Part shown: positions 4,590-51,483 of the stretch, piece after piece
Position numbering within the stretch: the first letter of the stretch is position 1
How the letters are laid out: the number at the start of each line of letters is the position of its first letter
Assembly (NCBI GenBank): GCA_027460525.1
Contig: JAPZAS010000031.1
Span: 1 to 53,629, forward strand
DNA from: Candidatus Methanoperedens sp.
Lineage (GTDB): Archaea > Halobacteriota > Methanosarcinia > Methanosarcinales > Methanoperedenaceae
Length of the DNA: 53,629 bases
Direction of reading: 5' to 3'
Position numbers and translations under genes: made by a program
The notes under the pieces: model-generated
What the model saw: the letters and a program-made list of their open reading frames with translations, nothing else
What the model was told of the DNA's origin: nothing
Databases searched by the model: none

Positions 4590-4608
4590 CTAATCACCTG
4601 CTTTGCAA

Positions 4609-4890
4609 TCATCTCTTCTTAACCTTAATCGCCTTTTCTATTAGCCTCTCCCTCTCTTCATCATCTTTCCGCATCTCTTCTATTTGCTTTCTTACAAGTT
4701 CCATATCAAGATCTTTTACCGATCCAACCAGTGTTGTAAGGTCAACTGTTTTCGGTGTCATTTTGATATTTCTATTGTCAACCTCAAGCAGAAGTTTATC
4801 ACCTTTTTTAAGTCTAAACTTTTTCCTGATTCTGGCAGGTATGATAACCTGTCCCTTCGCGCTCATGGTTATTGTTTCAATGTCTTCCAT
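4609..4890 (-). CDS. vapB: AbrB/SpoVT-type antitoxin, VapB
   Basis: A 93-residue protein with an N-terminal swapped-hairpin AbrB DNA-binding domain (motifs 'TMSAKGQVIIPARIR' and 'LKKGDKLLLEV', residues about 8-36). A charged C-terminal helix probably wraps the PIN toxin. It comes first in the two-gene unit, as is usual when the antitoxin represses its own promoter. No other partner is nearby. Pairing with the PIN gene is inferred from adjacency and family. Confidence 0.87.
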   Translation of the reverse strand: MEDIETITMSAKGQVIIPARIRKKFRLKKGDKLLLEVDNRNIKMTPKTVDLTTLVGSVKDLDMELVRKQIEEMRKDDEERERLIEKAIKVKKR

Positions 4891-4935
4891 GTCTTACACC
4901 ACCTACAAGTAAGACTCCAAGAAATATATATTTTA

Positions 4936-5262
4936 TCATAATCTGAACGGGTTATTCAAATTGGACAGGCACAGCCGTTGACAGTACAGGATGAGTGGCT
5001 GCTGAGGTAAGTATCGCCGTTTATCCGCGTAAACCTTTGAAAAAGGTTTATCAACGACGGGTATGGCGCGCCATACGGGACACGCCCTCCCGAAGCGTGA
5101 CTGGGGAGGGGTATGCGAAGCTACCCAACACTGCGCAAGCCGAAGTTTCGGCTTATCTGGGATTTCTTCTATTTTTCGATGTCCATCAGGCGGCGCCTCC
5201 ATTGGGTCTGGGCTTGCCCCGGCGCGGTAAAAGGTTTAGTACTATCAGGTAAAAATTAGGGG
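4936..5262. other. GC-rich, hairpin-dense region before nop5; possible structured RNA or leader
   Basis: Five inverted repeats lie within about 125 bases. They are a 9-bp stem with 3-base loop (5030-5050), a perfect 16-bp palindrome GTATGGCGCGCCATAC (5061-5076), CCCTCCC with GGGAGGG (5085-5110), GGGTA with TACCC (5109-5126) and AAGCCGAA with TTCGGCTT (5137-5154). The third and fourth share bases 5109-5110, so they cannot both be complete, as in a switch. The region is clearly more GC-rich than its flanks. Two overlapping opposite frames (4936-5202 minus, 4995-5252 plus) look non-coding. I could not match SRP RNA or RNase P signature sequences. It may be an RNA gene, a regulatory leader or a decayed mobile repeat. 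Confidence 0.45.
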
Positions 5263-5263
5263 T

Positions 5264-6196
5264 ATGCAAGTTAAAACATGGTTTGGCAGCTTCACACTGG
5301 ATGAAGGCAGGATAACCAATGTTGAATTATTCCAGAAAGACATTGATTCTCTCACACAACGAATAATTGAAGAACCAATGTTGTTAAGGGGTGAGGTTGC
5401 AGGTGAGGACATCAGCGACCTGGCAGTGAAGTTTGGTTTTGTCCGGTCAGGCGAGGAGTACGACCGCATGCTTCATGAGCTCAATATTGCGCTTGCAAAA
5501 AAACGGATAGCACAGGCTGTGACACCTGACAGGCGGATTATAGCTGCTATTGAGGCTATTGACGACATCGATGAGACAGGCAACATCCTTGCCGACAGGC
5601 TAAAAGAATGGTACATCCTCAATTTCGATGAGACTCACTTAAAAGGTGAAGACCTTGCGCATCATATAATCGGGATGGAAGTCACGGAAAAAACCCTGGA
5701 GAAAGATTTAAAGCTCATGCAGAGTTTCGCCGCATCGCTTCTTGGGTTATACAGCGCAAGGCTTTCAATCGAAGAATACCTGAAGGAAAAAATGCCCGTT
5801 ATCGCCCCGAACCTCACAAACATCGCCGGGCACGCCCTCGGAGCGCGGCTTTTAAGCATCGCTGGAAGCCTTGAAAGGCTGGCTTCAATGCCTTCAAGCA
5901 CGGTTCAGGTAATCGGGGCGAACAATGCGCTCTTCAAGCACCTGAAAGGCAAGGCCCCCTCGCCAAAGCACGGCATAATTTTCAGGCACCCGCTTATCAA
6001 TACTGCACCGAGATGGCAGCGGGGAAAGATTGCAAGAGCGCTATCCTCGAAAATATCGCTTGCAGCCCGGTACGATCATTATTCAGGAGAGTTAAAAAAA
6101 AACCTGGTTCCTGAACTGACAGCGAAAGTAGAGGATATTAAGAAACGCTATCCCAAACAGGGCAGGAAATCAAATCCTACAACCCCATCCTCTTAG
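5264..6196 (+). CDS. nop5: Nop5, C/D-box sRNP core protein
   Basis: A 310-residue Nop56/58 homologue. In archaea Nop5 bridges L7Ae on the C/D guide RNA and fibrillarin, which methylates rRNA and tRNA 2'-OH groups. Seen are an N-terminal fibrillarin-binding part, a long coiled-coil middle and the C-terminal Nop domain (about residues 165-295). The Nop signature includes APNLTNIAGHALGARLLS, a GANNALFKHLKG segment and KHGIIFRHPLI. Archaeal nop5 normally sits directly before fibrillarin. Here the next gene is the convergent cooC, overlapping nop5 by 20 bp, so fibrillarin must be encoded elsewhere. The upstream hairpin-rich region may belong to its leader. Confidence 0.93.
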   Translation: MQVKTWFGSFTLDEGRITNVELFQKDIDSLTQRIIEEPMLLRGEVAGEDISDLAVKFGFVRSGEEYDRMLHELNIALAKKRIAQAVTPDRRIIAAIEAIDDIDETGNILADRLKEWYILNFDETHLKGEDLAHHIIGMEVTEKTLEKDLKLMQSFAASLLGLYSARLSIEEYLKEKMPVIAPNLTNIAGHALGARLLSIAGSLERLASMPSSTVQVIGANNALFKHLKGKAPSPKHGIIFRHPLINTAPRWQRGKIARALSSKISLAARYDHYSGELKKNLVPELTAKVEDIKKRYPKQGRKSNPTTPSS

Positions 6197-15045: not shown

Positions 15046-15783
15046 TTATATTACCAACCCACCGTCCACGCAAAGCACCGCACCTGTAACAAACTTCGCC
15101 TCTTCTGAAGCAAGATATAAATATGCCTGTGCAACATCCCCCGGTTCACCAAGCCTGCGCAGAGGAGTTTTTTCTTTCATCAATTCAAGGATTTTTTCAG
15201 GCACATTCGACGTCATGGGAGTCATTATAAATCCTGGGGCTACTGCATTGACCCTTATCCCTTTTTTCCCGAGTTCCTTTGCCAGGGTCTTTGTCATGCC
15301 AATCAGACCGGCTTTGGTTGCAGCATAGTTGGTCTGACCGACATTGCCATTTATCCCTACAATGGAAGAGGTATTGATAATTACACCATTTCCCTGATTG
15401 ACCATGACTTCAACCACAGCCTGGATGCAGTTAAAAACTCCTTTAAGATTAACGTTGATGACTTTATCCCACTGTTCCTCTGTCATTTTTAATACGAGGG
15501 CATCCTGAACAATACCAGCATTATTTATCAAAATATCGATTCTACCGTATTTCTCCAGAGTATCCTTAACCATCTGTTTAGATTGTTCCCTGTTGGTTAC
15601 ATCCAGTTTAGCGAAAAATCCCTCTCCGTTTTTCTTAATCTCTGCTACTGTTTCATTACCGCCCTTTTCATTTACATCGGCGACAACAACTCTAGCTCCT
15701 TCGTTTGCAAACAGGAGTGCAGTCTCTTTACCAATACCGCTCCCGGCTCCTGTAATAATTGCAACTTTATTTTCAAGTCTCAT
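15046..15783 (-). CDS. Short-chain dehydrogenase, FabG/PhaB type
   Basis: A 245-residue SDR of normal length with TGAGSGIG (residues 11-18), NNAG, and the catalytic YAATK motif. It is probably a 3-ketoacyl-CoA or acyl-carrier reductase; inside the PHA operon it is a second candidate acetoacetyl-CoA reductase. Its ATG overlaps the phaC stop by 4 bp (ATGA), so it is translated with phaC. Unlike the other SDR of the operon it lacks the internal helix duplication. The two may differ in cofactor or chain length, which the sequence does not settle. Confidence 0.85.
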
Positions 15784-16916
15784 TTTATATTCCTCCTTGA
15801 TCTGCGAATCTTTATTTTTTGTTCAAACTTCTCTTCTCCATCCACGAGTGACCTCGGCTTTAACCACTCGGCAATCTTAGGGCAGACCTCTTTCTGGGAT
15901 TTGGAGCCCACGAAGATACCAATATGTCCTGTCGGGAAAACAAGCATCTCTTTATCCGAACTTGATACTGCATCAATCAGCGGTTTACTTGCATCATTGG
16001 GAACGAGGTGGTCAAATTCTGCCATTACATTAAGAAGAGGCATGGTTATATTTTTTAAATTAATTTTCTTACCATCGAGCATCATCTTGTTTTTGATAAG
16101 GAGGTTCTTCTGATAGCAGTCTTTGAAGAACTGCCTGAAGGTTTCACCTGCCTGGTCAGGACTGTCGAATATCCATTTCTCCATCCTGAGGAAATTCTTG
16201 ACTGTGTCTTCATTTCTAAGCTCGCATTCTTTATCCTCTGGTTCGCATTCGATTCGCTCAAAAAGACCTACATACTTGTCAATCATAAGCCTGAATGGAT
16301 CTGTGAGCAGGAATCCAGCATTCAGGAAATCACCGGGCACTATTCCATAGTAGTCCACGATCTTGTCCACATCCAGGCTCTTTGCCCATATATGAAGAAG
16401 TCCTTTATCCGTATCAAAGTTTACAGGCGCCACTAAAGTGATAAGGTTTTTTATCTTTTCAGGATGCAATGCAGCATACATCACAGAAAAAGTCCCGCCC
16501 TGGCATACGCCGAGCAGCGTTATCTTATCCAGTCCCGACCTTTCTCTGATCTTATCAACAGCATTATTTACATAACCGTTTACATAATCGTCAATAGTGA
16601 GGTATCTGTCCACACCCCTGGGATATCCCCAGTCAATGACATAGACATCAAAACCTTCATCCAGCAGCTTCTTTATAACACTTTTATCAGGCTGGAGGTC
16701 CAGAATGTAGTACCTGTTCACAAGTGCGTACACTACGAGTACTGGAACTGGATATGGTTTTTCTACGGCTGGGATATAATGGATAAGTTTCATCCTATCT
16801 TCGGTGTAGATGATTTCGGAAGGCGTTGTTCCAACCGAAAAATCAGAAGCTTTCAAGAACAGTTCCATCCCGTGCTTGAATTTCTCAACAAATTCTATTG
16901 AATTAAGTTCGTTCAT
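15780..16916 (-). CDS. phaC: Class III PHA synthase catalytic subunit PhaC
   Basis: A 378-residue alpha/beta-hydrolase that polymerises (R)-3-hydroxyacyl-CoA. The lipase-like box G-V-C-Q-G-G holds the nucleophile Cys138; Asp302 (EFDHLVP) and His331 (TGHIGIF) complete the triad. The short length and the adjacent phaE identify class III (PhaC+PhaE), as in Allochromatium, cyanobacteria and haloarchaea. The conserved VIDWG segment is at about residues 93-97. It lies 21 bp after phaE and overlaps the downstream SDR. Lys/Arg-rich C-terminal tail of unknown role. Confidence 0.95.
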   Translation of the reverse strand: MNELNSIEFVEKFKHGMELFLKASDFSVGTTPSEIIYTEDRMKLIHYIPAVEKPYPVPVLVVYALVNRYYILDLQPDKSVIKKLLDEGFDVYVIDWGYPRGVDRYLTIDDYVNGYVNNAVDKIRERSGLDKITLLGVCQGGTFSVMYAALHPEKIKNLITLVAPVNFDTDKGLLHIWAKSLDVDKIVDYYGIVPGDFLNAGFLLTDPFRLMIDKYVGLFERIECEPEDKECELRNEDTVKNFLRMEKWIFDSPDQAGETFRQFFKDCYQKNLLIKNKMMLDGKKINLKNITMPLLNVMAEFDHLVPNDASKPLIDAVSSSDKEMLVFPTGHIGIFVGSKSQKEVCPKIAEWLKPRSLVDGEEKFEQKIKIRRSRRNIK

Positions 16917-16937: not shown

Positions 16938-17996
16938 TCATTTTTTCTTGGTTTGATGAACCCCAACATATTCATCCTTTTTAGATGGGTTCATCAAAGT
17001 TTTGTGAATTTTACGAGATTCATCCTTTTTAGTTTGAGGAACCAAGGTTCTCTGTTCATTAAAACGGTTCATCGAATATTCTTTGATCTGGCTGGTCAAT
17101 TCCCCTACTGTTTCCTTGAGAGAATCCAACTCTTTGTTTATCTCATCGATTTCGGTCTTCGTGGGGAGATCCATTGTTTTCAGGTTCGACTCTTTTACTG
17201 TTCCTTTGAGAGAATCCAACTCTTTGTTTATCTCATCGATTTCGGTCTTCGTGGGGAGATCCATTGTTTTCAGGTTCGACTCTTTCACTATTCCTTTGAG
17301 AGAATCCAACTCTTTGTTTATCTCATCGATTTCGGTCTTCGTGGGGAAATCCATTGTTTTCAGATTCGACTCGTTTACTGTTCCTTTGAGAGAATCCAAC
17401 TCTTTGTTTATCTCATTTATTTCGTTCTTCGTGGGGAGATCCATTGTTTTCAGATTCGACTCTTTTACTGCTTTCTTAAGAGAATACAACTCTTTATTAA
17501 TCTCATCGATGTCGGTCTTCGTGGGCAGATTCATTGGTTTCAGGTAATTCTCTTCAAGCATCTCCCGGTTGTATTTTTGGAACTCCATAAAATGCGACAT
17601 TAATTTCCCCATGTCTTCCGCAAAATGGCCTGATTTCAGGAATTCCTTGAAGGTCTCGCTATACGTCTCTATCCAGATCTTGTAAAAATCTTTATATTTA
17701 TCAGGACTGTTTTCTCCCTCTATCTCGCTTCCCACCTTTTCATGCATTCTGCGCATTGCTTCCATGAATACGCTCTGGAGATTGACATTGGAGTCCATCC
17801 AGGTTGTATAAAGTTCAACAAATGTAGAGAAACCCTTCATCATTTTTTCGGATTTCTCACGCGCTGGGCCCACGGCAGGCATTTCGACTATTCTGCCCAT
17901 AGTGGCATTGTAGGTCTTTAACCACAGGTCAAAAAACTCCTGCGTCGATGATTCAAAACTAGATTTTTCCATATTTAACCTGTCTGAATCTCTCAT
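16938..17996 (-). CDS. phaE: Class III PHA synthase subunit PhaE with an amplified C-terminal repeat
   Basis: A 352-residue PhaE-like protein (Poly_PhaE family). The first 195 residues look like ordinary PhaE: helical, with 'FFDLWLKTYNATMG' and 'YKDFYKIWIETYSETFKEF', then 'MNLPTKTDIDEINKELYSLK'. This last motif, normally present once near the end of PhaE, is then repeated in a 30-residue register to give five copies (about residues 185-320), all predicted coiled coil. A Lys-rich tail follows. The start overlaps the upstream phaE-like gene by 4 bp (ATGA). PhaE is required for activity of class III PhaC. The repeat number may change how many PhaC bind (inference). Confidence 0.88.
   Translation of the reverse strand: MRDSDRLNMEKSSFESSTQEFFDLWLKTYNATMGRIVEMPAVGPAREKSEKMMKGFSTFVELYTTWMDSNVNLQSVFMEAMRRMHEKVGSEIEGENSPDKYKDFYKIWIETYSETFKEFLKSGHFAEDMGKLMSHFMEFQKYNREMLEENYLKPMNLPTKTDIDEINKELYSLKKAVKESNLKTMDLPTKNEINEINKELDSLKGTVNESNLKTMDFPTKTEIDEINKELDSLKGIVKESNLKTMDLPTKTEIDEINKELDSLKGTVKESNLKTMDLPTKTEIDEINKELDSLKETVGELTSQIKEYSMNRFNEQRTLVPQTKKDESRKIHKTLMNPSKKDEYVGVHQTKKK
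17100..17545 (-). repeat. 90-bp tandem repeat inside phaE
   Basis: Almost identical 90-bp units follow each other without spacers: the block GTGGGGAGATCCATTG begins at 17161, 17251 and 17431, with one-base variants at 17341 and 17521. Outer copies have diverged more than the middle ones, as expected from unequal crossing-over or slippage. The repeat keeps the reading frame and multiplies the LPTK...IDEINKEL segment of PhaE. Copy number could vary between strains. Confidence 0.9.
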
Positions 17997-19093
17997 TTTT
18001 TATTCTTTCCAGGATACGCTGACGCTGAACCTAAATCAGATTTTACCCACATCTTTGACATTCTGGCAAAGGTGTCTGTATATATCTTTGCCATAATCTT
18101 TACAGGCTCCATCATTTCTTTCATCGGGCCTGCCAGGGGCATGTCCTCAAAGAAGCTGTCAAAAGCTTTTTCATACATTTTTATCCAGAGAGTATAAAAT
18201 TCTTTAGCTACCTCTGGATCAGTGGCTTGTTGTGATAGCTCCTTGGTCTTTTCTGCCATTTTTTCAAGTGCAGCAATCCATGCCTTGTACATGTTCAGAT
18301 AAATACTGGTGCTCTGCACGAAACTCTCAAATACTTCTTTTGAAGGCTGCATAGACTGCACGCACTTGCCATAGGTCTCTTTATATGTTTCCATCCATAT
18401 AGTATAAAATTCCTTGTAAGCTTCGGGGCTTGCATCTCCCCGAGAAAGTTCTGCCATTTTCTCAGAAAGCCTCTGCATGGATTCAATCCACGGACCGTAT
18501 AACCTGGAGTATGTATTCTTCCATAGTTTTGACATCTGGACAAAGCTCTCCAAGTAGATATCCGGTATGCCTGTGTATTTTTCAAATATCTCTTTTGTAC
18601 TCTCTTGAGCAGGGAGTGCAAGAATTTCGTCGAATATTTTTTCATACGACTTTATCCACATATCATAGCATTCTTTATATTTTGCAGGGTCAGTTTCGCC
18701 TTTGAGTATCTCCTGGGTATTCTTTGCATTCTCCTCTAACTCGGCAATCCATCCTCTGTATAGTCTATTCGATTCCTCTGCACTTGAGAGGAATTTCTCA
18801 AGCGTTTCTTTATTGGACTTCAGCGTTGGGACTGGATAAAATTTACCAAAGGTGTTCTGGTATGTTTTCATCCATTCATCATAAAATTCCTTGTATTTCT
18901 GTGGTGTAGCTTCCTTTGAGAGAAGAGTCGCCTTCTCAAACATCTCTCCCGTTGATTCAATCCAGGGCTTGTACAGCTTTAAGTAGGAATCCTCCCACGT
19001 TTTTGAAACTTCTGTGTAGCTATCTGCCCACGTCTTGAAAATATCTTTCTTCTCTCCAGTTGTATCTTTTCTTTCCTCAGTTTTCTTAACCAT
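17993..19093 (-). CDS. PhaE-like repeat protein (copy B), possible phasin or granule scaffold
   Basis: A 366-residue, all-helical, charged protein. A motif of the type Y-K-E-F-Y-D-E-W-x-K-T-Y-x-x-x-F, also found in PhaE, recurs about every 85-95 residues: 'FYDEWMKTYQNTFG', 'CYDMWIKSYEKIF', 'FYTIWMETYKETYG' and 'FYTLWIKMYEKAF'. Between them lie aromatic 'W..SY.KLY.PWIES' segments. It has no signal peptide or membrane span. It overlaps phaE by 4 bp and is closely similar to the 366-residue protein encoded at 19710-20810. By repeat content and position it is probably a PHA-granule coat or synthase-accessory protein. No catalytic motif is visible. Confidence 0.75.
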   Translation of the reverse strand: MVKKTEERKDTTGEKKDIFKTWADSYTEVSKTWEDSYLKLYKPWIESTGEMFEKATLLSKEATPQKYKEFYDEWMKTYQNTFGKFYPVPTLKSNKETLEKFLSSAEESNRLYRGWIAELEENAKNTQEILKGETDPAKYKECYDMWIKSYEKIFDEILALPAQESTKEIFEKYTGIPDIYLESFVQMSKLWKNTYSRLYGPWIESMQRLSEKMAELSRGDASPEAYKEFYTIWMETYKETYGKCVQSMQPSKEVFESFVQSTSIYLNMYKAWIAALEKMAEKTKELSQQATDPEVAKEFYTLWIKMYEKAFDSFFEDMPLAGPMKEMMEPVKIMAKIYTDTFARMSKMWVKSDLGSASAYPGKNKK

Positions 19094-19425: not shown

Positions 19426-19692
19426 CTATGTTTTGTCCAGCATTTCCTCTAACATATCGTCTGCACTTAGCAGGTATCTTGCTCTCTCCAGGTCTATTTC
19501 CGCAAGGCTTTTCCATGAAGGCATGCCAAGGACTATTCCCGATGTCCTCTCTATATCTTCAAGCGTGTCTTCGTATGCTTCTTTCTTGACATTGTAGATA
19601 TAATTTCCATTTCCCACGTCAAGGTCAGCAAACGATGCTTCACGGTCGATTTCCTGGACGACACCGTCCAGGCTTATTTCTCTAAATCCCAT
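19426..19692 (-). CDS. Small protein of an unrecognised three-member local family (copy 1)
   Basis: An 88-residue acidic protein. Its C-terminal half (WKSLAEIDLERARYLLSADD followed by MLEEML) is almost identical to that of the proteins encoded at 21211-21489 and 22078-22416, also at DNA level. The middle segment YEDTLEDIERTSGIV resembles the N-terminal helix of carboxymuconolactone decarboxylase/AhpD-like proteins, but the catalytic CxxC domain is absent. It follows the phaE-like gene A by 17 bp with its own GAGGCGA binding site, so it is co-transcribed with PHA genes. I do not recognise a characterised function; a role in PHA granules or their regulation is only inferred from position. Confidence 0.7.
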   Translation of the reverse strand: MGFREISLDGVVQEIDREASFADLDVGNGNYIYNVKKEAYEDTLEDIERTSGIVLGMPSWKSLAEIDLERARYLLSADDMLEEMLDKT

Positions 19693-19709: not shown

Positions 19710-20810
19710 TCAAACCCGGCTTGTAGCGCTGGAAAACGAATTCACCCACAGCTTGGAGAACTTGGTAAATGTGTCTGCATATATCTTAGCCGCATTCTTT
19801 ACAGGCTCCAGAATCTCTTTCATCGGTCCGACCGCAGGAGTGTCCTCAAAGAAGCTGTCAAAAGCCTTTTCATACGTCTTTACCCATAGGTTATAAAATT
19901 CTTTTGAAGCCTCAGGATCATTGGTTCGTTTTGATAGCTCCTCAGCCTTTTCTGACAGTTTTTCAAGTGCTGCTATCCAGGACTTGTAAAGGTTCAGATA
20001 AATATTTGCGCTCTGTGCGAAACTCTCAAACACATCCTTTGAAGGCTGCGATTGGAAATCAAACAACTTGCCGTAGGTTTCATTATACGTATCCAGCCAC
20101 AGGGTATAAAATTCCTTATAAGCTTCGGGACTTGCGCCTCCTTTGGAGATTTCTGCTGCTTTCTCGGATAGCTTCGATATGGATGCCATCCACGGCTCGT
20201 AGAGCTTAGCATACGAATTCTTCCATAATTTTGATATCCGCAAAAAGGTCTCTGAGTAGAAATCGGGTACGCCTGTGTAATTTTCAAATGCCTCTTTTAT
20301 ATTTTCCCGGGCTGGCAGTTCAAGAAGCTCATCGAATATTTTTCCGTACGACTTTATCCACAGATCATAGACTTCTTTATATTTTGCAGGATCCTGTTCG
20401 CCTTCGAGTACCTCTCTTGTCTTCTGGGAATTCTCCTCTAACCTGGCAATCCATGACCTGTAGAGATTATTCGATTCCTCTGCGCTGAGCAAGAGTTTCT
20501 CAAGAGTCTCTTTATTGGATTTCACTGTCGGGATGGGATAAAAATCACCAAAGGTATTCTGGTATGTTTTCACCCATTCGTCATAAAATTCCTTATATTG
20601 CTTTGGTGTAGCATCCTTTGGGAGAAGAGCCGCTTTCTCAAACAGTTCTCCTGTGGATTCAAGCCACGGCTTGTACAGCTTTAAGTAGGAATCCTCCCAC
20701 AATTTTGAAATGCCTATGTGGCTGTCAGCCCATATCTTGAAAACATCTTTCTTTTCTTCATTCACAACTTTTCTCTCTTCAGTTTTTCTTTCTTCAGTTT
20801 TTTTAACCAT
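19710..20810 (-). CDS. PhaE-like repeat protein (copy A), possible phasin or granule scaffold
   Basis: A 366-residue helical paralogue of the protein encoded at 17993-19093, with the same order of repeats: 'FYDEWVKTYQNTFG', 'VYDLWIKSYGKIFDE', 'FYTLWLDTYNETYG' and 'FYNLWVKTYEKAFDS'. The N-terminus differs by a short TEERK duplication and the C-terminus ends in FSSATSRV. An AGGAGTGA site precedes the ATG. It opens a leftward unit with the 88-residue small gene. The paralogues differ at many positions but keep length, so the duplication is old and under selection. No enzymatic motif is seen; a PHA granule role is inferred from the PhaE-like repeats and neighbours. Confidence 0.75.
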   Translation of the reverse strand: MVKKTEERKTEERKVVNEEKKDVFKIWADSHIGISKLWEDSYLKLYKPWLESTGELFEKAALLPKDATPKQYKEFYDEWVKTYQNTFGDFYPIPTVKSNKETLEKLLLSAEESNNLYRSWIARLEENSQKTREVLEGEQDPAKYKEVYDLWIKSYGKIFDELLELPARENIKEAFENYTGVPDFYSETFLRISKLWKNSYAKLYEPWMASISKLSEKAAEISKGGASPEAYKEFYTLWLDTYNETYGKLFDFQSQPSKDVFESFAQSANIYLNLYKSWIAALEKLSEKAEELSKRTNDPEASKEFYNLWVKTYEKAFDSFFEDTPAVGPMKEILEPVKNAAKIYADTFTKFSKLWVNSFSSATSRV

Positions 20811-21210: not shown

Positions 21211-21489
21211 TCAGGTTTTGCCCAGCATTTCCTCTAACATATCGTCTGCACTCAGCAGGTATCTTGCTCTCTCCATGTCTATCTCCGCAAGACCCTTCCA
21301 TGAAGACCATTTTTGGATATTCTCTATACATTCAAGCGTATCTTCATATAACTCATCAAGGTTGACATTGGAATTGATATACTCTCCATTTCCCACATCA
21401 ACCGCGATGTCAGCAAATGACCCTTCAAGATCAATTTCCTGGACGAAATCGTCAAGCATATTGGATTCGCTTATTTCTTTAAATGCCAT
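21211..21489 (-). CDS. Small protein of an unrecognised three-member local family (copy 2)
   Basis: A 92-residue acidic protein whose C-terminal 36 residues (WKGLAEIDMERARYLLSADD then MLEEML) nearly match the 88-residue paralogue at 19426-19692. The DNA over the last 80-odd bases is almost identical, pointing to recent duplication or gene conversion. The N-terminal VQEID...SFADI segment is also shared with that paralogue. GGGGTGA lies 5 bases before the ATG. No catalytic motif or membrane span. It is separate from the phaE-like gene A by the 51-residue ORF and the repeated promoter element. Function unknown. Confidence 0.7.
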   Translation of the reverse strand: MAFKEISESNMLDDFVQEIDLEGSFADIAVDVGNGEYINSNVNLDELYEDTLECIENIQKWSSWKGLAEIDMERARYLLSADDMLEEMLGKT

Positions 21490-22077: not shown

Positions 22078-22416
22078 TTAGGCGCTCTCTTCTTGCGCTG
22101 CCTCAGAGCCGCCACTGGATTTTATGGGCGTGGGTACAACATTACCTTGCGTTTCGCTCAACATTTTTTCTACCATTTCATCTGTGCTTAGCAAGTATCT
22201 TGCTCTCTCCAAGTCTATCTCCCCGAGGTTCCTCCACGAAGTAGCCTCACGGCACTGAATACAGAACTTCACGACACTCTCCAGCTCTATCTCCTCATGG
22301 CTCTTCCATGAAGGCCAGTCATGGACAAGTTTTTCCTTGGGAAAAAACTTCATTAAGCTAGGTACTGTTCCCAATGTCTTCTCTATATCGTTAAGCGTAT
22401 CTTCATATATTCCCAT
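22078..22416 (-). CDS. Small protein of the local family (copy 3), AhpD-like N-terminus
   Basis: A 112-residue protein, the longest member of the family. Its N-terminal part ('YEDTLNDIEKTLGTVPSLMK', then FFPKEKLVHDWPSWK) resembles the N-terminal helices of carboxymuconolactone decarboxylase/AhpD-like proteins. A short CIQC-containing stretch follows where that family has its CxxC domain, then the shared tail EIDLERARYLLSTDEM. The two shorter paralogues look like this one with the middle deleted. A Ser/Glu-rich C-terminus is added. I prefer the ATG at 22416 with GGTGAT just upstream; a GTG at 22428 is possible. Function unknown; a redox or granule role is speculation. Confidence 0.65.
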   Translation of the reverse strand: MGIYEDTLNDIEKTLGTVPSLMKFFPKEKLVHDWPSWKSHEEIELESVVKFCIQCREATSWRNLGEIDLERARYLLSTDEMVEKMLSETQGNVVPTPIKSSGGSEAAQEESA

Positions 22417-22560
22417 TCCTATCACCACTTTATATAATAGATTTGTCGCACAATAAAACTTTCGGTGGGTGTGGATGCCTTGTAGCAGATGTTATTTCAC
22501 CCGGCTTTTCATAAAAGGTAAATATTATCAAGTTAAACCCACAATCCTGAGTACTGCAAA

Positions 22561-33423: not shown

Positions 33424-33613
33424 CGTTGTGAGAGAAATATGGATTTTTTGGATTCCGAGTTTGATAAAAATTCTTTAGAATTTCTAAAGCAACACAAATA
33501 TATATTCCAATGTGATTGAGGAACGAAATTGGATTCATAAGACAGCATTCTTAGGTGGCACCGATGCTTGCTGGAAGCGAGGAATAAAACAGACATCTGG
33601 TGGGAGATGCAAT

Positions 33614-34879
33614 ATGGGAATACTTGATTTTTTCAAGCCTGACGTAGAAAAAATGGAAATGAAAAGGGATGTTAAGGCATTGAAAGATGTATTGAATCAT
33701 AAAAAAGATAAGTACATTCGAAAGAAAGCTGTAGAAGCTCTTAGAAAAATAGGAGATAAAAGCGTTATAGAAGCTCTTAATCAGGCTTTAAATGATGAAA
33801 ACTGGGAAGTTCGAAAGAGAGCAGTCGAAGCTCTTGGAGAAATAGGGGATAGAAGGGCAATAACGTCTCTTATTAATTCATTGGAAGATGAAAACGAGTA
33901 TGTTCGGTGGAGAGCGATAGAAGCTCTTGGAAAGATAGGGGATAGAAGGGCGGTAGAACCTCTCATTCAGGCATTGAAAGATGAAAACGAGTATGTCCGG
34001 GAAGAGGCGGCAAAAGCTCTTGGGAAAGCAGGAGATAAAAAAGCGGTAGAACCCCTCATTCAGGCATTGAAGGATGGAAACGAGTATATCCGGGAAGAAG
34101 CGGCGAAAGCTCTTGGAAAAATAGGTGACGTGGAAGCGGTAGAACCTCTCATTCAGGCATTGAAAGATGAAAACGAGTATGTCCGGGAGGAAGCCGGAGA
34201 TGCACTTGTAAAAATAGAAGATAAAAGGGCGGTTGGAACTCTTATCCTGGCATTGCAAGATAGAAATGATAATGTTCGGAAGAGAGCAGCAGAGACTCTT
34301 GGAAAGATAGGAGATAAAAGGGCAATAAAACCACTCATTATAGCCTTGAATGATAAGGATTTAGATGTTCGCAAGAGAGCAGCAGAAGCCCTTGGGGAGA
34401 TAGGAGATAACAGGGCAGTCGAACCGCTCATTCTGGCTATGAAAGATGTTTTTCCTGATATCCGGGATGATGCCGCAGATGCACTTGCGAATATCGGAGA
34501 ACCTGCTGCAGGACTTCTCGTTCAAGCTTTGAAGGATGAAGACCTGGATGTCAGATGGAGAGCAGCAGGAGCTCTTGGAAAAATAGGAGAACCTGCGGTA
34601 GAATATCTCATCCAAACAATGAAGGAGGGAGGCGAGCATGTTCGAGAAGCAGCAACAGAGATTCTTGTTAATATAGGAGAACCTGCTGTGGAAACCCTTA
34701 TTCAGACTTTAAAGGACAGGGACGAGCATGTTCGAGAGGAGGCAGCCGAAGCTCTTGTGAGAATCGGAGAATCTGTGGTCAGACCACTCATTGCAGCTCT
34801 GAAAAGTGAGGACATGGAGGTTAGAAAGAGAGCAGCAGAGACTCTTGTAAAAATAGGAGAATCTGCTGAAAAGTATTAG
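33614..34879 (+). CDS. HEAT-repeat (PBS-lyase type) protein with 13 repeats
   Basis: A 421-residue protein made almost wholly of 31-residue HEAT units of the form [20 protein letters not shown], then [12 protein letters not shown] count thirteen. The short N-terminus is [17 protein letters not shown]. Central units are very similar also at DNA level (93-bp period). The ATG at 33614 follows GGGAG at good distance. The open frame extends back to 33512, but the added residues are unlike the repeats and begin with GTG. Such solenoids are protein-binding scaffolds, and the partner is unknown. It ends 2 bp before the convergent nadM. Confidence 0.85.
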
Positions 34880-50409: not shown

Positions 50410-51483
50410 ATGGTAATTATGAATAAAGAATCTACTATTTTCAAAAATATAATTACTGTGCTGCTGACACTGATTATTTTGGGATTGGCGGCAGGAACGG
50501 CGGGCGTGACGCAGGCGCCGGTAGATCTTGGAACAGCCGGCAATTTCGTGATTCTGGCAAAATCAGGAATCTCAACCACTGGCACGACCTCGATTGTTGG
50601 AGACATTGGAGTGAGTCCAATCGCCAGCACTGCCATAACCGGATTTGGGTTAATAATGGATGCCTCGAATGAATTTTCGACGTCATCTGTAGTGACGGGA
50701 AAAGTATATGCAGCCAACTATGCGCCTCCAACTCCATCTACTATGACCACGGCCGTAAGCGACATGGAAACAGCGTACACCGATGCAGCCAGACGGACAT
50801 CACCCGATCATACTGAACTGGGTGCCGGAAATATCGGCGGGATGACACTCACCCCTGGTCTTTATAAGTGGGGGACAGGTGTTAAAATCCCCGCAGGTGG
50901 TGTCACTCTATCGGGCGGCGCAAATGATGTCTGGATCTTCCAGATAGCGCAAGATCTCACCGTGGACAACGGTGCCAAAGTTACTCTTAGCGGGGGCGCA
51001 CAGGCCGGGAACATCTTCTGGCAGGTCGCCGGCAAAACGACCCTTGGAACCACGTCTGACTTCAAGGGAATTATCTTATCTAAAACGCTGATTTCGCTGA
51101 ACACTGGCGCAACGCTAAACGGCAGAGCGCTGGCACAGACAGCGGTTACATTAACTGCCAATGTTATCACCGCCCCGTCTTCTGGCGTTAACCCGACAAA
51201 CACCCCGACAATAACAACCACAGGTATGGTAACAGGAACTCCGGCTAAGCCAACAGGCACGGCTATTCCAGTTAATCCAACAGTTACGGCTACTCCAGTT
51301 AATCCAACAGTTACGGCTACTCCGGCGGGCACAACCACAGGTATGGTAACGGGAACTCCAGCTAAGCCAATAGGCACGGCTACTCCGGTGCCTGCACCGA
51401 CAAATAAGGTACCGGGTTTTGAATTTGCACTTGGAATAGCCATACTTTCATTGGCTTATCTGTTCGGCAAAAAGAGAAGATAA
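50410..51483 (+). CDS. Ice-binding-like (DUF3494) surface protein with PGF-CTERM-like anchor
   Basis: A 357-residue exported protein. After a signal peptide (about residues 1-32) comes a DUF3494 beta-solenoid domain (about 36-255; VDLGTAGNFVILAKSGIS, later LTPGLYKWGTGVKIPAGGVT and the 'GNIFWQVAGKTTLGT' segment). A Thr/Pro repeat linker (about 258-330) follows. The C-terminus is a PGF motif, a hydrophobic helix and KKRR, the form of an archaeosortase PGF-CTERM signal. DUF3494 proteins include ice-binding proteins and adhesins; the latter or a surface role is likelier here. The start could also be the ATG at 50419, given the position of GGGAGG. Confidence 0.85.
   Translation: MVIMNKESTIFKNIITVLLTLIILGLAAGTAGVTQAPVDLGTAGNFVILAKSGISTTGTTSIVGDIGVSPIASTAITGFGLIMDASNEFSTSSVVTGKVYAANYAPPTPSTMTTAVSDMETAYTDAARRTSPDHTELGAGNIGGMTLTPGLYKWGTGVKIPAGGVTLSGGANDVWIFQIAQDLTVDNGAKVTLSGGAQAGNIFWQVAGKTTLGTTSDFKGIILSKTLISLNTGATLNGRALAQTAVTLTANVITAPSSGVNPTNTPTITTTGMVTGTPAKPTGTAIPVNPTVTATPVNPTVTATPAGTTTGMVTGTPAKPIGTATPVPAPTNKVPGFEFALGIAILSLAYLFGKKRR

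Follow-up and report, generated by a model that had tools for sequence, protein, structure and literature searches.

Why would a PhaE protein carry five copies of a C-terminal segment that is normally present once, and does each copy bind the synthase, as the original prediction made from the sequence proposed? The question is posed by a gene of Candidatus Methanoperedens sp. on a stretch of 53,629 nucleotides (hereafter the window), which is an entire 53.6-kb contig of a 2.44-Mb assembly and carries CODH-like and pha genes. PhaE forms part of the class III PHA synthase (PMC9049629), and the window PhaE is a real, unusual form of this known family.

The phaE gene and its tandem array

The gene lies directly before phaC, and its features, all on the minus strand, were as follows.

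15780 to 16916, minus strand: phaC, class III synthase (TIGR01836, 477.4 bits, cut-off 365.3)
16938 to 17996, minus strand: phaE with the five-unit array, 352 aa, a stop-free open frame with a PF09712 match
17460 to 17939, minus strand: helical region of the PhaE family, with the first, canonical LPTK copy at its end (PF09712 match)
17106 to 17545, minus strand: tandem array, period 90 bp, 4.9 copies (Tandem Repeats Finder, 91% matches, score 724)
17460 to 17549, minus strand: unit 1, NYLKPMNLPTKTDIDEINKELYSLKKAVKE, with canonical Y15 and K19 retained
17370 to 17459, minus strand: unit 2, SNLKTMDLPTKNEINEINKELDSLKGTVNE
17280 to 17369, minus strand: unit 3, SNLKTMDFPTKTEIDEINKELDSLKGIVKE
17190 to 17279, minus strand: unit 4, SNLKTMDLPTKTEIDEINKELDSLKGTVKE, its 66-bp core identical to one unit of a related array (G013, below)
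17100 to 17189, minus strand: unit 5, SNLKTMDLPTKTEIDEINKELDSLKETVGE, running on into the canonical ending ELTSQIKE
16941 to 17099, minus strand: lysine-rich C-terminal tail, internally duplicated (TLVPQTKKDESRKIHK / TLMNPSKKDEYVGVHQ; self-alignment score 41)

The identification as PhaE was borne out by a profile search, in which residues 20-178 matched PF09712 at 117.8 bits (cut-off 25.7), and by the adjoining class III phaC, whose frame starts 21 bp downstream. The protein missed the NCBIfam cut-off for TIGR01834 (102.8 against 154.95), its best stretch covering only profile positions 161-319 of 324, and it was therefore filed under PF09712. The likely start is MEKSSF at 17972, an MEKS start being common to relatives.

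Numbered along the 352-aa frame, the LPTK starts of units 1 to 5 (residues 157, 187, 217, 247 and 277) agreed with the Tandem Repeats Finder array, the strongest in the window, confirming five segment copies in a strict 30-residue register. The motif quoted in the original prediction, LPTK-x-x-IDEINKEL-x-SLK, described the units overall, except that unit 2 reads INEINKEL, unit 3 FPTK, and units 2-5 ELDSLK rather than ELYSLK. Near identity of the 90-bp units had also been claimed; this was true of units 2-5, which differed pairwise at 4-10 of 90 nt, but not of unit 1, which differed from them at 16-21 nt. In all six pairs of inner units pN (0.03-0.08 per site) was lower than pS (0.11-0.27 per site), a comparison that involves tiny counts and is confounded by homogenisation. 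The claim of a recent expansion stood as far as in-frame duplication is concerned, and with synonymous differences of 0.11-0.27 per site among the inner units, “recent” can be meant only in a relative sense. The tail carries a second, smaller duplication (16941-17040, minus strand), whose copies have a 15-bp exact stretch in common and whose self-alignment score was reached in 0 of 2000 shuffles. Elsewhere in the window, tandem units of 90-93 bp at 33717-34779, inside the frame 33512-34879, appeared HEAT-like by eye, and about three copies of a 27-bp tandem repeat were seen at 51238-51335.

Two further PhaE-like genes lie upstream in the operon.

17993 to 19093, minus strand: protein of 366 aa made up of four helical modules like those of PhaE, LPTK segment absent (profile match)
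19710 to 20810, minus strand: 366-aa paralogue with the same modular build (profile match)

The modules of both proteins carry YKEFYxxWxKTY, and proteins of this type occur widely in related genomes; the two may be dedicated granule proteins. Three short related frames near the pha operon (19426-19692, 21211-21489 and 22078-22428, minus strand) had AEIDLERARYLLSADDMLEEML-like text in common, and no NCBIfam model matched them.

Copy number among relatives and origin of the array

A single LPTK segment was found in 40 of 46 distinct related PhaE frames, and all nine tabulated haloarchaeal PhaE had one copy each, at the extreme C-terminus, which upheld the view that the segment is normally single. 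The six exceptions were the window, G016 C110, G003, G001, L062 and G013 C8. The PhaE of G016 C110 (RifSed csp2) has two 30-aa units, and those of G001, G003 and L062 have two diverged copies each; these four proteins thus share a second copy of the same segment with the window, but have two only, and copy 2 is diverged in all except G016. The L062 protein (4606-5424) is encoded on a contig labelled Actinomycetota, is 56% identical to the window PhaE and has an additional coiled tail; its presence there may reflect transfer or mis-binning. In the same genome as the window, a second pha operon (L067, G000 C17:62000-74510), 87% identical to the window across the phaC-phaB stretch, encodes a single-copy PhaE.

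The canonical PhaE of relatives ends in ...EENYLKPMNLPTKTEIDEINKELYSLKKTVKELTSQIKELKEKK. Unit 1 of the window opens with NYLKPMNLPTK and retains ELYSLKK, and the last unit passes into GELTSQIKE as in the canonical end. Because both the start of unit 1 and the end of the last unit are canonical, the array represents the canonical segment duplicated in place.

The longest array, in G013 C8 (L068 1472-2600), consists of seven full copies and one partial copy, mostly of 26 aa and lacking the four residues SNLK (about one helical turn). Downstream of it are a tail of the same type and the initial phaC codons, followed by a jump to the 3' end of the thiolase gene; no PhaE domain was found upstream of the array, and the locus resembles a rearranged and probably dead operon, or else a misassembly. 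One 66-bp unit core was identical to that of window unit 4, with neighbouring matched stretches about 81-88% identical. Judged by their sequences, the two arrays have a common origin, and gene conversion or transfer is a possible source of the exact 66-bp identity. Variation in copy number, predicted between strains, was thereby demonstrated between species (1, 2, 5 and 8 copies). A search of viral contigs, plasmids and 393 sampled genomes from the phylum yielded no further array, and weak matches at 31-41% identity were probably generic helical sequence. In the limited literature searched, we found no description of a duplicated conserved PhaE segment.

These comparisons also speak to the possibility of an assembly artefact, in which the unit number would be wrong or the array misassembled. 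The assembly is a metagenome-like draft of 37 contigs, and exact repeats of up to 80 bp are present. Since 80 bp is the longest exact repeat within the gene, ordinary reads longer than about 100 b could resolve the array; moreover, the units differ from one another at several sites, homologous units occur in an independently assembled species with one 66-bp core identical, and a third species has two copies. Misassembly could change the unit count, hardly the existence of the array, and we consider an artefact barely credible.

The strongest rival to a functional reading is neutral expansion, whereby a harmless helix was amplified by in-frame slippage or unequal crossing-over and is tolerated without function. 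The copy number changes freely among relatives, the tail holds its second small duplication, the operon that contains the G013 array is broken, and the single-copy PhaE of the second operon could carry the essential function. Against this, every unit is open and retains its helix core, pN was below pS in six of six inner-unit pairs (with the reservations given above), and two species have retained arrays that share an origin. Expansion without function was accordingly given a modest chance, well short of even.

Conserved and lost faces of the repeated helix

Canonical or first copies, haloarchaeal ones included (n = 56), were compared with extra copies (n = 15), 11 of which came from two related arrays and are not independent rows. 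Core positions 7, 10, 14 and 17 were hydrophobic in every copy, canonical or extra, and position 21 in every extra copy; the five positions were kept in 14-15 of the 15 extra copies. Position 15 was Y, F, I or V in 56 of 56 canonical copies, whereas 14 of the 15 extra copies had D (window, G013), Q (G001, G003) or N (L062); the losses thus fall in three lineages, each with its own replacement residue, and copy 2 of G016, a further lineage, retained Y15, contrary to this pattern of loss. Likewise, position 19 was K or R in every canonical copy (56 of 56) and basic in three of the 15 extra copies. On the helix, positions 15 and 19 are separated by one turn and share a face that points away from the core. 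With the core kept and this face lost, the sequence comparison suggested that the added units keep the part that pairs helices and lose a second, conserved contact that positions 15 and 19 probably formed.

Similarity to phasins and to other repeat proteins

The array matched the phasin profile PF05597 at 48.8 bits (cut-off 28.8), its best stretch, residues 269-300, corresponding to profile positions 94-125 of 126; on TIGR01837, it remained below the cut-off, with a best stretch at profile positions 85-117 of 118, and both sums were inflated by the repeats. The best PF05597 stretch covered the profile end only, with no match to the N-terminal granule-binding part of phasins, and the N-terminal domain of the window PhaE matched PF09712 rather than the phasin profile. 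In the phasin PhaF, a leucine zipper after the PHA-binding helix was modelled as a tetramerisation element, and a tetramer was observed by ultracentrifugation (PMC3574117). The window PhaE resembles PhaF and PhaI (PF05597 / TIGR01837) in having a short helical zipper behind a helical region, which in phasins is granule-binding, and differs in that the zipper is repeated and no DNA-binding C-terminal domain was seen. It resembles other PhaE (PF09712 / TIGR01834) in its N-terminal helical domain, its canonical LPTK segment (unit 1) and a gene directly before class III phaC, and differs in having five C-terminal segments instead of one and a duplicated basic tail.

The likeness to phasins also raised the possibility of a granule-surface anchor, the repeated amphipathic helices resting on the PHA granule as phasin or perilipin repeats do and giving firmer attachment. 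The amphipathic character of the units (hydrophobic moment 0.46-0.51) and their phasin-like profile favour this; however, their mean hydrophobicity is low (0.05 in extra units, against 0.17 in the canonical segment and 0.48 in a PhaE N-terminal helix), substitutions in the added units are polar or glycine, and in phasins the long N-terminal helix, rather than the zipper, is the part credited with binding (PMC3574117). Such an anchor is highly improbable.

The best sequence match of the array in the PDB, in which our search by sequence found no PhaE structure, was the DC-SIGNR neck (3jqh, E 2.5e-11). The neck repeats of DC-SIGN, a receptor of the same family, are described as forming a coiled coil upon oligomerisation (PMC6272597), and the DC-SIGN and DC-SIGNR necks, which form oligomeric stalks, likewise consist of tandem helical repeats that begin with proline and vary in number. 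Unlike the 30-residue window unit, the neck unit has 23 residues and belongs to an unrelated animal lectin. The likeness is an analogy and may be a convergence of low-complexity helix sequence; the evidence of homology is the phasin profile.

Borg elements of Methanoperedens contain many in-frame tandem repeats, two of them in PF09712 proteins (PMC9879509), where the peptides repeated in PhaE are short and unrelated to the present segment (DESEKGINLTEK and SESPVK); three draft host genomes had only 1-4 tandem-repeat regions each (PMC9879509). The window array, with its five units of 90 bp, is similar to these in having at least three tandem in-frame units of a length divisible by three. However, Borg repeats are near-perfect and mostly disordered, whereas the window units have diverged (4-10 and 16-21 nt) and repeat a conserved segment that is modelled as helical. 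Classification as a Borg-type repeat was dropped, as the units derive from a conserved PhaE segment and have diverged.

Structure prediction and the PhaE-PhaC interface

AlphaFold predicted long helices for the PhaE-family region (17460 to 17939; block pLDDT mostly 64-91) and modelled the repeats of the window PhaE as five separate helices (152-175, 182-202, 212-234, 242-262 and 272-309; block pLDDT about 36-76) joined by low-confidence linkers, the breaks falling at SNLKTMDLPTK. This single-chain model, folded as a read-through frame that included PhaC, was of low confidence, with a mean pLDDT of 59, a pTM of 0.35 and units 2-4 lying for the most part under 75 and in many places under 60. The heptad stripe drifts by 206 degrees per 30-residue unit and 154 per 26-residue unit. 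A continuous coiled coil was rejected, as neither unit length keeps the heptad phase; because the 30-residue unit leaves that phase, any coiled coil must break at the linkers.

Both genes lie in one frame in the window and in 17 relatives, and the PhaE-stop-PhaC fused frames were aligned and folded. The two fused models had mean pLDDT values of 59.0 and 57.5 and pTM values of 0.35 and 0.40, PhaC was modelled badly, and at this low confidence no interface was discernible. In a Foldseek search of the first fused model against the PDB, the matches listed were all PhaC or other alpha/beta hydrolases.

This brings us to a multivalent synthase scaffold, in which each unit would dock one PhaC and a PhaE would gather as many as five synthases at a nascent granule. 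Such a role suits a protein that belongs to the class III synthase (PMC9049629), and the PhaE profile region best conserved out to the haloarchaea (positions 232-310) contains the segment; separate helices and flexible linkers in the AlphaFold model suit beads on a string, and Y15 of the motif is kept in copy 2 of G016. However, the conserved face at positions 15 and 19 is lost in the extra copies, the segment matches phasin profiles, the fused models were too poor for any interface to be seen, and nothing in the analysis indicated that the segment binds PhaC. For a scaffold to work, the core face would have to be the one that binds PhaC, and multivalent binding through that face is disfavoured. 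We regard the scaffold as unlikely, and the claim that each copy is a synthase-binding site was not supported, given the loss of the face and the resemblance of the segment to the phasin zipper, for which tetramerisation rather than synthase binding has been reported.

A segmented stalk as the proposed role

The reading that we propose, and which we hold to have an even chance of being correct, is that the array forms an oligomerisation stalk that is both longer than usual and segmented, and that contains one complete canonical copy at its base. The C-terminal oligomerisation helix of the class III synthase subunit PhaE would have been amplified into five helices, each unit being a helix of about 22 residues with an LPTK cap at its start and a flexible linker of about eight residues to the next. 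Like units of neighbouring chains would zip via I7, I10, L14, L17 and V21, yielding a segmented coiled-coil stalk roughly five times the normal length, as in the DC-SIGNR neck. Unit 1, joined to the PhaE body, alone retains the second face (Y15, K19) and could thus make the canonical contact, with PhaC, the PhaE body or the granule as candidate partners, while the added units would lengthen or stabilise the oligomer and keep the basic tail further from the enzyme. The array itself, the copy numbers, the conservation pattern, the homology to PhaE and the phasin-zipper profile match are observed; oligomerisation, the geometry of the stalk and the binding partner of each face are what we infer in this proposal. 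In its favour are the phasin and DC-SIGNR matches, the kept core beside a face lost with different residues in separate lineages, the five modelled helices, and G013 units shorter by about one helical turn. Weighing against it are the low model confidence, the loss of heptad phase, Y15 in copy 2 of G016 and possible convergence with DC-SIGNR. The long G013 array also counts against a stalk, as its broken operon indicates that arrays do not always accompany a working gene. The number of repeats in this PhaE could also serve as a dial of length or valency, an archaeal lineage varying its zipper or docking helices (1, 2, 5 or 8) and thereby setting how many synthase complexes a granule carries or their distance from it, an idea that we consider unlikely.

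Significance

One genome carries two close pha operons, one whose PhaE has a single segment and one whose PhaE has five, and a relative (G016) has two. As the added copies keep one helix face and lose the other, the two faces have been separated genetically, making self-association and partner contact directly testable against each other. If the number of units alters granule size or synthase clustering, it would provide a simple handle for bioplastic engineering.
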